Source of the DNA: Bacillota bacterium
Lineage (GTDB): Bacteria; Sysuimicrobiota; Sysuimicrobiia; Sysuimicrobiales; Segetimicrobiaceae
Assembly: GCA_021324255.1 (NCBI GenBank)
Contig: JAJPJL010000023.1
Span: 1 to 55,370, forward strand
DNA: 55,370 nucleotides
Reading direction: 5' to 3'
Under the pieces are notes generated by a model that saw nothing but the letters and a program-made list of their open reading frames with translations, had not been told where the DNA came from and made no database searches. Shown in pieces: positions 2,254-6,199 of the stretch; the first letter of the stretch is position 1, and every line of letters starts with the position of its first letter. The position numbers and the translations under genes are program-made.

Positions 2254-2282
2254 TTGACGCTCCCAGGGCGCGATGCTACGCT
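2254..2282 (+). promoter_or_regulatory. Probable sigma-70-type promoter of the mrp-DUF169-fur-lptA operon
   Basis: TTGACG (2254-2259) is separated by 17 bases from TACGCT (2277-2282), with the extended -10 dinucleotide TG at 2274-2275. Transcription would start near 2289, about 95 bases before the mrp ATG and immediately before the Fur-family dyad at 2293-2307. The -10 hexamer is only a partial match, so confidence is moderate. Confidence 0.5.
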
Positions 2283-2292
2283 CGTTATGCGT

Positions 2293-2307
2293 TGAGAATG
2301 ACTCTCA
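2293..2307. promoter_or_regulatory. Fur-family operator (7-1-7 inverted repeat)
   Basis: The 15-mer TGAGAATGACTCTCA is a 7-1-7 dyad matching the classical Fur/PerR-type box TGATAATnATTATCA at 11 of the 14 defined positions; its two arms agree at 6 of 7. Flanking C-G and G-C pairs (2290/2310, 2291/2309) extend the symmetry. It sits just downstream of the predicted promoter and of the start of transcription, where a bound repressor would block initiation. The third gene of the operon encodes a Fur-family protein, so autoregulation is the natural inference. Confidence 0.55.
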
Positions 2308-2382
2308 TCGGCCCCCCGCCGGTCCCGGCATGATCGCCGCCCCGGGGCCTGATTCGCGCCCAACGACCTGAGGAGGCCAACC

Positions 2383-3474
2383 ATGGCTGCCCGCCAGCTC
2401 GCGGTGACCCGAGACCAAGTGCTCGAGGCGCTGCGTGACGTCATGGATCCCGAGCTTCACCGTAGCATTGTGGAGCTCAACATGGTCAAGGACATCGCGA
2501 TCCGCGGCGGTGATGTGCGCGTGGACGCGTTGCTGACGATCAGCGGGTGTCCGCTTCGGGAGACCATCATCGACTCGATCAAGACCAAGGTCGCGTCGCT
2601 CCCGGGCGTCGAGCGGGTGGACGTCCACCTCGGCGTGATGACGCAGGAACAGCGGCAGGCGCTCGTCGCGCAGCTCCGCCCCGGGCCGCAACGGCAATCG
2701 CCCCTGCTCGCCCCCACGTCGAAGACGCGCATCCTGGCCATCGCGAGCGGCAAGGGCGGCGTCGGGAAGTCCACGGTGACCGTCAACATCGCGGCCGCCC
2801 TCGCCAGGCGGGGCCGCACGGTCGGCGTCGTCGACGCGGACGTCTACGGGTTCAGCGTCCCGAAGATGCTCGGCGTGTCGGGTCACCCCACCATCATCGA
2901 TCAGATGATCATCCCGCTCGAGCGCTGGGGCGTGCGCGTCATGTCCATCGGCTTCATGGTCAACGAGGGCGAAGCCGTCATCTGGCGCGGCCCGATGTTG
3001 CACAAGGCGCTGACGACGTTTCTCACGGAGGTCCACTGGGGCGAGGTGGACGATCTGCTGATCGACCTGCCCCCCGGCACGGGCGACGTGTCCTTGACGA
3101 TCGCGCAGACCCTGCCGCGGGCCGAGATGTTGATCGTGACGACCCCGCAGTCCACGGCGACCGGCGTCGCCTACCGCTCCGGCAAGATGGCCGAAAAGGT
3201 CAACATGGGCGTCGTCGGCGTCGTCGAGAACATGTCGTACTTCGTGCCGTCCCCGGGGGCTGAGCCCGTGTATATTTTCGGCCGGGGCGGGGGCGAGGAG
3301 CTGGCGCGGATGGTTGACGCGCCGCTGCTCGGCCGCATTCCGCTCGACCCCGCGATTCGCGAGGGCAGCGACCGGGGGGTCCCCGTCACGATCGGGTCGC
3401 CGGATTCCGCGTCGGCGCGCGTCTTCTTCGAGATCGCCGACGCCCTGCTCGGCGCCGGCGTGCCGAACGGATAG
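2383..3474 (+). CDS. mrp: Mrp/NBP35-type P-loop ATPase (Fe-S cluster carrier family), lacking the CPxC motif
   Basis: 363 aa. Residues 1 to about 85 are an MIP18/DUF59 domain (VLEALRDVMDPELHRSIVEL). The deviant Walker A SGKGGVGKST lies at 122-131, followed by VVDADVYGF, and the switch region is DDLLIDLPPGTGD. The family carries and transfers Fe-S clusters in the cytoplasm. The usual cluster-binding CPxC just after 'ENMSYF' is absent: the segment reads ENMSYFVPSPGAEPVYIFG with no cysteine. The ATG follows a strong ribosome site (GAGGAGG, about 7 nt). It is the first gene of the Fur-box operon, 20 bases ahead of the DUF169 gene. Confidence 0.92.
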   Translation: MAARQLAVTRDQVLEALRDVMDPELHRSIVELNMVKDIAIRGGDVRVDALLTISGCPLRETIIDSIKTKVASLPGVERVDVHLGVMTQEQRQALVAQLRPGPQRQSPLLAPTSKTRILAIASGKGGVGKSTVTVNIAAALARRGRTVGVVDADVYGFSVPKMLGVSGHPTIIDQMIIPLERWGVRVMSIGFMVNEGEAVIWRGPMLHKALTTFLTEVHWGEVDDLLIDLPPGTGDVSLTIAQTLPRAEMLIVTTPQSTATGVAYRSGKMAEKVNMGVVGVVENMSYFVPSPGAEPVYIFGRGGGEELARMVDAPLLGRIPLDPAIREGSDRGVPVTIGSPDSASARVFFEIADALLGAGVPNG

Positions 3475-3494
3475 TGGAGGAGGGGGCGCACCGC

Positions 3495-4292
3495 ATGGAG
3501 CCGGCCTCGCTGAACGCCGAGATCGAGAAGCACGTCCGCCCGCAGACTTTTCCGGTCGGCATCCGCATGGTGCGGCCCGGCGAGGCGCTGCCGGACAACG
3601 CGCGGCGGCCCGCACAGGATCTGGGCATCCGGGTCGCCATCTGCCAGACCTTCTCGATAGCGCGCCGGTATGGGTGGACGGTGGCGGTGGGGCGGGACGA
3701 CCTGAGTTGTCCCCTCGCGAAGACCGCGTTCGGGTTCGAGCCGGTGCTGCCGTACTACGCCGAGGGTCAACTCGCGTGCGGCATGTATGTCGACACGCCG
3801 GAGGCGGCGGCGCGCACGGAGGCCGAGGTACCGAAGTTCTCCTTCGGCGAGTACGAGCGCATCCTCATCGGCCCGCTGGCCCGGGCGGCGTTCGAGCCGC
3901 ACGTGGTGCTGGTGTACGGAAACTCCGCGCAGGTGATGCGTCTCGTCGCCGCGGCGCTGTTCCGGCGCGGCGGCCGGCTGCACAGCAGCTTCTCCGCGCG
4001 CCTCGACTGCGCCGACGCCGTCATCGAGACGATGCATTCGGGGCAGCCGCAGGTCATTCTCCCGTGCTACGGCGACCGGATCTACGGGCAAACCGAGGAT
4101 CATGAGATGGCGTTTACGATCCCCTGGGCCATGGCCGAGGAGCTCGTGGACGGGCTTGCCGGGACGCAGCGGGGCGGCGTGCGGTACCCGATTCCGGCCT
4201 GGCTCAGATATACAGGAGAGTTTCCCGAGAAGTACCGCAAGCTGGACGCGCTGTGGGACGAGGAGCGCGCGCGCAAGCCGGGGACGCCGTAA
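3495..4292 (+). CDS. DUF169 family protein
   Basis: Conserved protein of unknown function, about 265 aa, matching the DUF169/COG2043 pattern: an N-terminal 'FPVGIRMV' segment, a cysteine-containing 'ICQTFSIARRYGWTVAVG', 'DDLSCPLAKTAFGF', and the glycine-rich 'VLVYGNSAQVMRLVAA' and 'LPCYGDRIYGQTEDHEM'. Several cysteines (in CQ, SCPL, ACGM, DCAD, PCYG) could bind a metal or cofactor, though this is inference. ATG 3495 is preferred over the overlapping GTG 3474 because GGAGGAGGGGG ends about 7 bases before it. It lies between mrp and fur, suggesting a link to metal or Fe-S homeostasis. Confidence 0.8.
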   Translation: MEPASLNAEIEKHVRPQTFPVGIRMVRPGEALPDNARRPAQDLGIRVAICQTFSIARRYGWTVAVGRDDLSCPLAKTAFGFEPVLPYYAEGQLACGMYVDTPEAAARTEAEVPKFSFGEYERILIGPLARAAFEPHVVLVYGNSAQVMRLVAAALFRRGGRLHSSFSARLDCADAVIETMHSGQPQVILPCYGDRIYGQTEDHEMAFTIPWAMAEELVDGLAGTQRGGVRYPIPAWLRYTGEFPEKYRKLDALWDEERARKPGTP

Positions 4293-4335
4293 CGTCGCGT
4301 TCCCGCAGCGCAGCGCGGCCGAGGGGAGCCGACAG

Positions 4336-4845
4336 GTGGCGGTCACGACGGCGGGGAGGGGCAGGCGGCGGGCGGTCGCGCGGGGCACCGGCGCGACGCT
4401 GGCCGACCGCCTGGAGGCGCTCGAGCGGCAGGGTTACCGGGCCACGCCGCAGCGCCGTGCGATTCTTGCGGCCGTGCTCGGCGCGGGACGCATCAACGTC
4501 TCCGCGGAGGAGGTGTGCGGCCGCGCGAAGGCGCTGTGCCCGACCGTCAACCTCGCGACGACGTACCGTACCCTGGACCTGCTCAAGCGCCTCGGCATCG
4601 TGCGCCGGGTGACCTACGGCGACGGCCGAGGCGTCTTTTGCGCAAACCCCGACCCGCATTACCACGGCACGTGCCTCCAATGCGGAGCCGTGGTCGACCT
4701 GCCCCGGGGACGCATCGCGGACGTGCTCGAGCGCGAGCAGCGGGGCCTCACGGACCCGGCCTTCGCGGTGGTGGGACACCGCGTCGAATTTTACGGGTAC
4801 TGCGACGCGTGCCGCTCGGCCGGCCGGACCGGGGCGATCCTGTGA
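4336..4845 (+). CDS. fur: Fur-family metal/peroxide-responsive transcriptional regulator
   Basis: 169 aa from GTG 4336, with GAGGGGA about 9 nt upstream. The winged helix (about 22-95) includes GYRATPQRRAILAAVL and the recognition-helix region VNLATTYRTLDLLKRLGIV. The dimerisation/metal half has HYHGTCLQCG (H108, H110, C113, C116), H148 and a second CDAC pair (C156, C159), the two CxxC pairs that hold structural zinc. The 20-residue Arg-rich N-terminal extension is unusual. Whether it senses Fe, Zn, Mn or peroxide cannot be read from the sequence. It probably binds the dyad at 2293-2307. Its stop overlaps the lptA start by 4 nt. Confidence 0.9.
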   Translation: MAVTTAGRGRRRAVARGTGATLADRLEALERQGYRATPQRRAILAAVLGAGRINVSAEEVCGRAKALCPTVNLATTYRTLDLLKRLGIVRRVTYGDGRGVFCANPDPHYHGTCLQCGAVVDLPRGRIADVLEREQRGLTDPAFAVVGHRVEFYGYCDACRSAGRTGAIL

Positions 4846-5690
4846 CACGCCGGCGGACGGTACGGGCTGCCCTCCTGGTGAGCCTCCTGCCGGCGCTCTG
4901 CGTCGCATCGTGGGCCGCCGCCTCGGGGAGCGCGCCGTTGTCGCTCGCGTCCCCGCTGCAGCTGACCGCGGACCAAGTCACGGTGGACAACACGGGCGCG
5001 ACGCTCACCGCGGCCGGCCACGTCCGCATCGACTACGGCGCGGACCGTGCGACCGCCGACCTGCTGCGCCTGAACCGTGCGGCGCGCACCGCGGTGTTGT
5101 CCGGCCACGTCACGGCGACCGGACCGCAGGGGCAGGCCACGGCCGACGCGATCACGCTCGTCCTGAGCCAGGCCAACGAGATCACGCGGGCCGTCATGAG
5201 CGGGAACGCATCCGTCGAGACGACGCAATACGCGCTCTCGGCCGATTCGATCGATGCGGACCGGTCCGGGGAGCATCTCGTCGCCGCGGGGCACGTCACC
5301 ATGTTCGACGCGCCCGACCTCGTCGTGACCGGGGACCGGCTGGTATACGATGGGCGGAGCCAACACGGGCTGGTGACGGGGCATCCGACCGTGGCCAACA
5401 AGGCCGGCCGCCTGCAGGGGAGCGCGATCGAGTTGTTTCGGGCCGAAGACCGCGCCGTGATCCACGGGCCGGTGCAGGCCGACGTGTACGGTGCCGTGGC
5501 CACCAGCGAGGACGCCGCCGTGAACTTCAAGACGTCGGTGGCCACACTCACGGGCAAAGTCGTCATCGTACGGCGTCAGGGTACGCTGTGGGCGGACCGC
5601 GTGACCATCGACTACAAGACGCGGCGCTTGGTGGCGGAGGGAACCACGCGCGCGCACTTTACCGACCTCGGCGACGCCGGGACGCCCTGA
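4842..5690 (+). CDS. lptA: LptA/OstA-like lipopolysaccharide transport periplasmic protein
   Basis: 282 aa from GTG 4842 (GTGA overlap with the fur stop, so translation is probably coupled). A signal peptide covers residues 1-27 (VRAALLVSLLPALCVASWAAA). The rest is repeated OstA beta-jellyroll strands: 'LQLTADQVTVDNTGATLTAA', 'GHVRIDYGADRATADLL', 'ALSADSIDADRSGEHLVAAG', 'LVVTGDRLVYDGRSQHGLVT'. LptA bridges the periplasm, carrying LPS from the inner-membrane LptBFGC complex to LptD. Fusion to a fur operon is unusual. A YrbI/LptB neighbour is absent; the LptD-like gene is 40 kb away at 45398. Confidence 0.82.
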   Translation: MTRRRTVRAALLVSLLPALCVASWAAASGSAPLSLASPLQLTADQVTVDNTGATLTAAGHVRIDYGADRATADLLRLNRAARTAVLSGHVTATGPQGQATADAITLVLSQANEITRAVMSGNASVETTQYALSADSIDADRSGEHLVAAGHVTMFDAPDLVVTGDRLVYDGRSQHGLVTGHPTVANKAGRLQGSAIELFRAEDRAVIHGPVQADVYGAVATSEDAAVNFKTSVATLTGKVVIVRRQGTLWADRVTIDYKTRRLVAEGTTRAHFTDLGDAGTP

Positions 5691-5779: not shown

Positions 5780-6199
5780 GTGCGGGGGCGAGTGTTGCGG
5801 GCGGCCGTCTGGCGCTGGACGGTCGCGGTGGCGGCGGGCGTCGCGGTCTTTGAGGGGTTGGACTCGCTCGGGGCCAGCCCGCCCGTCGTGGAGGCATTGC
5901 CGGCCGCGGCCTCGCTGCCGGCGGTGTCGCCGTTTGCGTGCGGTCTCGCCGCCGTGTGGGCGACCCGCCTCCCGGTACCCGCCGCGCTCGCGGCCGCCGC
6001 CGCCGCGGTGTGGGCCCGGATCGGGGCGGACCGGGTGATCGGGATGTGGCACGGGGTCAACCCACCCCCCGAATACGGCGTGGTGCTCGTGCTGGCCTTC
6101 GGCGTGCCTTGGATGGTGAGCGCGCTGGCCGGCGGCGCCATCGCGGCGCTTGCGAGAGGAGCCGTCCGCCCGCTGATCGGGCGGTGGCTGGGGTCATAG
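5780..6199 (+). CDS. Small integral membrane protein, unknown function
   Basis: 139 aa, very Ala/Val-rich. Three or four hydrophobic stretches are visible: about 8-25 (AAVWRWTVAVAAGVAVF), 48-75 (SPFACGLAAVWATRLPVP on into AAAAAAVWARIG), and 95-125 (YGVVLVLAFGVPWMVSALAGG). No family recognised. GTG 5780 is used; GTG 5792 is a possible alternative. It follows lptA by 89 bases on the same strand and may be the last gene of that operon. The reading frame is convincing mainly because no competing frame codes here. Confidence 0.5.
   Translation: MRGRVLRAAVWRWTVAVAAGVAVFEGLDSLGASPPVVEALPAAASLPAVSPFACGLAAVWATRLPVPAALAAAAAAVWARIGADRVIGMWHGVNPPPEYGVVLVLAFGVPWMVSALAGGAIAALARGAVRPLIGRWLGS

Follow-up and report, generated by a model that had tools for sequence, protein, structure and literature searches.

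The window analysed here, a stretch of 55,370 nucleotides, corresponds to contig C27 in a genome (G000) of 3.7 Mb and 142 contigs. It carries a promoter, an inverted repeat and a row of genes, one of which encodes a Fur-family regulator:

2254-2282, forward strand: promoter TTGACG-17-TACGCT, read from the sequence; -35 and -10 elements at similar spacing recur before mrp in the family
2293-2307, no strand assigned: putative operator dyad TGAGAATGACTCTCA, a 7-1-7 Fur-type box, from sequence, conservation and a chance test
2383-3474, forward strand: mrp, with a MIP18-like N-terminal domain and a NUBPL/ParA NTPase domain (Pfam PF01883, PF10609), without CXXC
3495-4292, forward strand: DUF169 protein (COG2043; Pfam PF02596, E 1.6e-59)
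4336-4845, forward strand: Fur-family regulator of 169 aa, here called Fur27 (Pfam PF01475, alignments)
4842-5690, forward strand: lptA-like gene with an LptD_N/OstA domain (Pfam PF03968), found after fur in relatives
5780-6199, forward strand: small protein without a Pfam match, found after lptA in most of the family

A sequence-only reading of this DNA had proposed an operon of the order mrp, DUF169, fur, lptA, ending at 4845. The order is borne out by Pfam, while the lptA-like gene, whose start (4842) overlaps the fur stop (4845), continues to 5690, and the small-protein gene is probably the end of the conserved row. The DUF169 frame is open from 3474, but the family alignment favours the ATG at 3495, which is the more likely start. 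Comparison added something that is invisible from the window alone, namely that most relatives have a pair of genes inserted between DUF169 and fur, which encode the subunits of a 2-oxoacid:ferredoxin oxidoreductase (korA and korB, with POR/POR_N and TPP_enzyme_C/PFO_beta_C domains). The ancestral order was likely mrp-DUF169-korA-korB-fur-lptA, with korAB lost from the operon in the window's genome and in G001. LptA may be merely a fellow traveller.

The promoter consists of a -35 element TTGACG (2254-2259), a spacer of 17 nt and a -10 element TACGCT (2277-2282); by consensus it is weak (8/12), yet it is conserved, and a promoter listing of the window has no entry in this region. The dyad starts 10 nt past the -10 element and would occupy about +4 to +18 relative to the expected transcription start. 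It had been described as a Fur/PerR-type 7-1-7 box just behind this promoter, matching at 11 of 14 positions, and both the placement and the count are correct, the comparison being with TGATAATNATTATCA. Against the degenerate form TGANAATNATTNTCA it agrees at 11 of 12 informative positions, with one mismatch, and six of the seven pairs of its inner palindrome match. A scan of the window with TGANAATNATTNTCA returned TGAGAATGACTCTCA as the sole match with fewer than three mismatches, the next best having three. Nor did the suggestion that such a dyad is unlikely by chance need amendment, for 6 Mb of first-order Markov sequence modelled on the window held no site of equal score. Genome-wide, the box pattern with at most two mismatches found 14 sites, against one for the reversed control, which indicates that the organism uses such boxes. 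With the narrower pattern TGAGAANNNTTCTCA and at most one mismatch the genome yielded just two sites, both away from transporter genes; further TGAGAANNNTTCTCA matches in relatives (e.g., TGAGCAAAGTTCTCA in G004, G007 and G009) were dropped as lying at or inside reading frames. An Rfam search of the window and of the second-site loci described below gave no match.

We sampled 12 genomes of the family, in 10 of which (G000-G009) the DNA upstream of mrp was readable; family and order are the ranks assigned by the genome tool, and the relatives were deposited under names such as 'Terrabacteria group bacterium ANGP1' (L049, a contig of G008) or as unclassified Bacillota MAGs. Conservation of the dyad upstream of orthologous operons had been put forward as a check on the box, and both promoter and dyad precede mrp in all 10 readable genomes, with the dyad consensus TGA[GT]AATNNYTCTCA. 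The dyad reads TGAGAATGACTCTCA in the three genomes of the window's genus, TGAGAATTGTTCTCA in G004, G005 and G009, TGAGAATTCTTCTCA in G007 and TGATAATTACTCTCA in G003, G006 and G008. Across eight of these ten genomes mean pairwise identity is 86% in the dyad and 83% in the -10 element, compared with 49% in the 17-nt spacer and 40% in the 100 nt upstream. Nine genomes from the order's other families, whose mrp orthologues are 63-69% identical, lack the dyad before mrp (0/9, the best candidates reaching 5-8 of 12 positions); they are also without DUF169 and without a close relative of Fur27. Fur-family paralogues do occur in those other families, but without the dyad before mrp.

That the operon encodes its own Fur-like regulator, as first proposed from the sequence, is confirmed by a score of 68.7 bits against PF01475 (cut-off 23.1). 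Fur27 has two structural-zinc CXXC pairs, C113/C116 and C156/C159. Its orthologues, 67-100% identical, are found only in the window's family, where they sit in the same gene row; the best proteins elsewhere reach 39-42%. Naming its subfamily through the NCBIfam PerR, Fur, Zur and Irr models was abandoned, no curated cut-off being reached; the equivalog scores were 82.1 versus 220 for Bacillus Fur, 69.5 versus 180 for PerR and 29.5 versus 167 for Zur. Its best match among solved structures is B. subtilis PerR (PDB 2fe3, E 4.2e-20), the regulatory site of which we take to be formed by His37, Asp85, His91, His93 and Asp104. No gap interrupts this alignment within the regulatory region; H108, H110 and D121 of Fur27 fall on PerR H91, H93 and D104, and the four structural cysteines are kept. 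In contrast, N54 stands in place of H37 and C102 in place of D85, for which reason we rejected an assignment as PerR from the regulatory site, and Fur27 has two extra cysteines, C61 and C68. Among the correctly read orthologues of the family N54, C102, C61 and C68 are invariant.

The window's genome has four Fur-family genes. The paralogue on C39 follows genes for an ABC transporter ATPase and an ABC-3 permease, in front of which lies TGGAAATGATTTACA (G000:C39:2850-2864), and znuA on C6 has a box, TGATAATGATTTTCA (G000:C6:21989-22003), directly behind its -10 element and so placed as at mrp. This arrangement at znuA is also seen in G001 and G002. The remaining paralogues, on C75 and C72, have OFeT/VIT-like and FTR1-like genes as neighbours. 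Taken together, the boxes at znuA and the ABC operon are the predicted zinc-uptake specificity, and they differ from the mrp-type box at positions 4 and 12, which argues that the mrp-type box is a separate one.

Fur27 was also compared with Zur. Site B of E. coli Zur comprises His77, Cys88, His96 and Glu111 (PMC4219657), and the same paper describes the hinge-region cysteine as the site-B residue best conserved across Zur proteins. Fur27 too has a cysteine, Cys102, near the hinge of its regulatory site; it occupies the equivalent of PerR D85, and a pairing with E. coli Zur Cys88 would be one of hinge position only, as the spacing differs, the distance to the structural CXXC being the 11 residues of PerR and not the 15 of E. 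coli Zur. Further differences are the separate Zur-like paralogue beside the zinc-type ABC operon and a mrp box unlike the zinc-uptake boxes; an assignment of Fur27 as Zur through control of zinc uptake was rejected on the same grounds, the znuA and ABC boxes being of another type and another paralogue adjoining the ABC operon. A Zur-like cysteine at the position of PerR Asp85, together with the lost His37, speaks against a classical PerR and makes iron, zinc or another thiophilic signal possible, although zinc would not be our first guess given the other paralogue that sits with the zinc-uptake genes and boxes. As its regulatory ligands are partly replaced, metal control of Fur27 cannot be assumed.

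The second TGAGAAT-type site of the genome, on C117, lies about 300 nt before a 14-codon frame, with an M29 peptidase gene further on. Centre and right half of the dyad co-vary by genus between mrp and this second locus: G004 has TGAGAATTGTTCTCA at both, with a TTG centre; G007 has TGAGAATTCTTCTCA at mrp and CGAGAATTCTTCTCA at the second locus, with a TTC centre in both; and G000, G001 and G002 have CTCTCA right halves at both. This genus-wise co-variation means that very probably one factor reads both sites, for which Fur27 appears the best candidate. In 8 of the 12 family genomes the leader of some 300 nt, in which long blocks are conserved, terminates in the 14-codon frame, MATKKKAAKKGKKR or a close variant (L039:7560-7909, which is on G000:C117, and L152, L161, L154, L155, L278, L283 and L284). 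The M29 peptidase gene follows further past the frame in several genomes, and the assemblies of G000 and G001 break at the same point of the leader.

The strongest alternative is that the box is real and is read mainly by another paralogue, either the Zur-like protein by the zinc ABC operon or a PerR-like one by the iron transporter genes, so that the operon's own fur would be a target and not the reader. Three further Fur-family genes are available for this role, the boxes observed all vary on a single 7-1-7 pattern, and one genome keeps the dyad without Fur27. In G003 (C33; L274:3356-8208) the row is mrp-korA-korB-lptA, with no Fur27 and only a 29-residue remnant of DUF169, and the promoter dyad TGATAATTACTCTCA is nevertheless retained. 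G006 has the identical dyad, despite a divergence from G003 that leaves the fourfold sites of mrp with only 54% likeness. The left half in the genus of G003 (g2) is TGATAAT, as in the znuA box. Either fur and DUF169 were lost recently in G003 or another paralogue reads TGATAATTACTCTCA there; the remnant is still well preserved, and so the losses may be recent. Against a paralogue as the usual reader stand the differences of the zinc-uptake boxes at positions 4 and 12, the fact that neither of the only two TGAGAAT-type sites in the genome is at a transporter gene, and the restriction of the dyad before mrp to the family that has Fur27, even though the order's other families possess Fur paralogues. 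On this evidence we regard a paralogue as main reader as unlikely, if worth keeping in view.

It would also be logical to ask if the dyad acts in the transcript, as a stem-loop at the 5' end that affects mRNA stability, or if it is the site of an unrelated dimeric regulator. It lies inside the expected transcript, and UGAGA can pair with UCUCA. However, in G003, G006 and G008 the T and C at positions 4 and 12 break the stem and keep the canonical half-site TGATAAT, which disfavours an RNA stem, and positions 6 and 10 are A and C in the window's genus. The recurrence of the same box at the second locus and its specific likeness to Fur-type boxes, as judged by the Markov test, weigh against both forms of this idea, which we consider quite improbable. 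A chance palindrome can be dismissed, having no counterpart in the 6 Mb of Markov sequence and requiring the dyad to have been kept in 10 of 10 genomes while its flanks diverged.

We therefore favour, with reasonable though not full confidence, the dyad before mrp as the operator of a negatively self-regulated operon, with metal-loaded Fur27 as its putative binder and repressor. This reading sets out from what can be observed, that is the box, its position and conservation, its absence outside the family in genomes without the regulator, its family-wide linkage with the regulator gene and the co-variation at the second locus. Fur27 is the natural candidate reader since nearly every family genome with the dyad also carries the fur27 gene within the operon. 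In the proposed mechanism metal-loaded Fur27 would occupy the 15-bp box shortly after the -10 element, blocking RNA polymerase; when the signal, a metal or a redox state, is missing or oxidised, Fur27 would release the box and allow transcription of mrp, DUF169, fur and lptA, and of korAB in most relatives. We infer here that the binder is Fur27 and not a paralogue, that it acts by repression and that the corepressor would be a metal, and the earlier description of the operon as metal-controlled is likewise an interpretation, to be read alongside the altered regulatory ligands. Judged from comparative sequence data, the operon is real and is probably self-regulated and under a lineage-specific Fur-family repressor, and the wider functional story around it is only partly supported.

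That wider story had joined Fe-S carriage, an uncharacterised Cys-containing protein and LPS transport in one metal-controlled unit and had offered a possible role for DUF169. In ApbC/Mrp Fe-S carriers a CXXC motif binds the cluster. The Mrp of the window has a single cysteine, Cys56, and CXXC is absent from Mrp in all 14 genomes of the order that were checked (the window's and 13 others); it also scores below the ApbC cut-off (252.5 versus 348 bits). Fe-S carriage cannot then be deduced from the name Mrp and is doubtful. The DUF169 protein is a clear member of its family (201.7 bits against PF02596, cut-off 27). Nine of the other 11 family genomes have an orthologue, which in one case is cut short by a contig end. 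The idea of a role for DUF169 within the operon gains from this family-wide linkage and from G003, where DUF169 and fur have both gone; since the two genes do not adjoin in that genus, their joint disappearance is a hint of cooperation. It does not extend further, as among 80 DUF169 loci mrp, korAB and fur adjoin only in the three from the window's family and in none of the 77 outside it, and the 80 loci yielded no universal neighbour. Our searches found neither a function for DUF169 in the literature nor a related solved structure; one screen in Desulfovibrio assigned a COG2043 gene to a nitrate-fitness cluster (PMC4001038). At eight loci from Brevibacillus and Ardenticatenia-type genomes (L076, L080, L082, L087, L088, L105, L106 and L123) DUF169 lies near an M29-peptidase-like gene, and in the window's family the M29-linked locus and the DUF169 operon both have a TGAGAAT dyad; this could be coincidence.

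A bolder reading, conceivable but rather doubtful at present, is that Fur27 is the founding member of a separate subgroup of the Fur family, in which Cys102, possibly aided by the invariant Cys61 and Cys68, brings sulphur into the regulatory site, sensing a signal other than free iron, zinc or peroxide (e.g., Fe-S, haem or redox state). Such a regulator would couple the 2-oxoacid:ferredoxin oxidoreductase, the Mrp NTPase, DUF169 and the LptA-like protein to a second unit, in which an M29 peptidase goes with a lysine-rich peptide of 14 residues. Should the altered site indeed sense a new signal, the known range of Fur-family sensors would be widened. More immediately, the locus offers a defined candidate regulator-operator pair for an uncultured lineage, for which the sequence by itself suffices to set up in vitro tests. 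For this lineage it also links the uncharacterised DUF169 family with 2-oxoacid:ferredoxin oxidoreductase genes and with a regulator of the Fur family.

The closest parallels are Fur, PerR and Zur of B. subtilis, which are autoregulated Fur-family systems with a 7-1-7 box. Shared with these are a winged-helix protein of the Fur family, an inverted-repeat box that overlaps the promoter or start region and a gene for the regulator that belongs to the regulon or lies close to it. The system described here differs in its half-site TGAGAAT, in a regulator that is lineage-specific and in the genes that it would control, which are mrp, DUF169, korAB (in most relatives) and lptA in place of a metal transporter or catalase.
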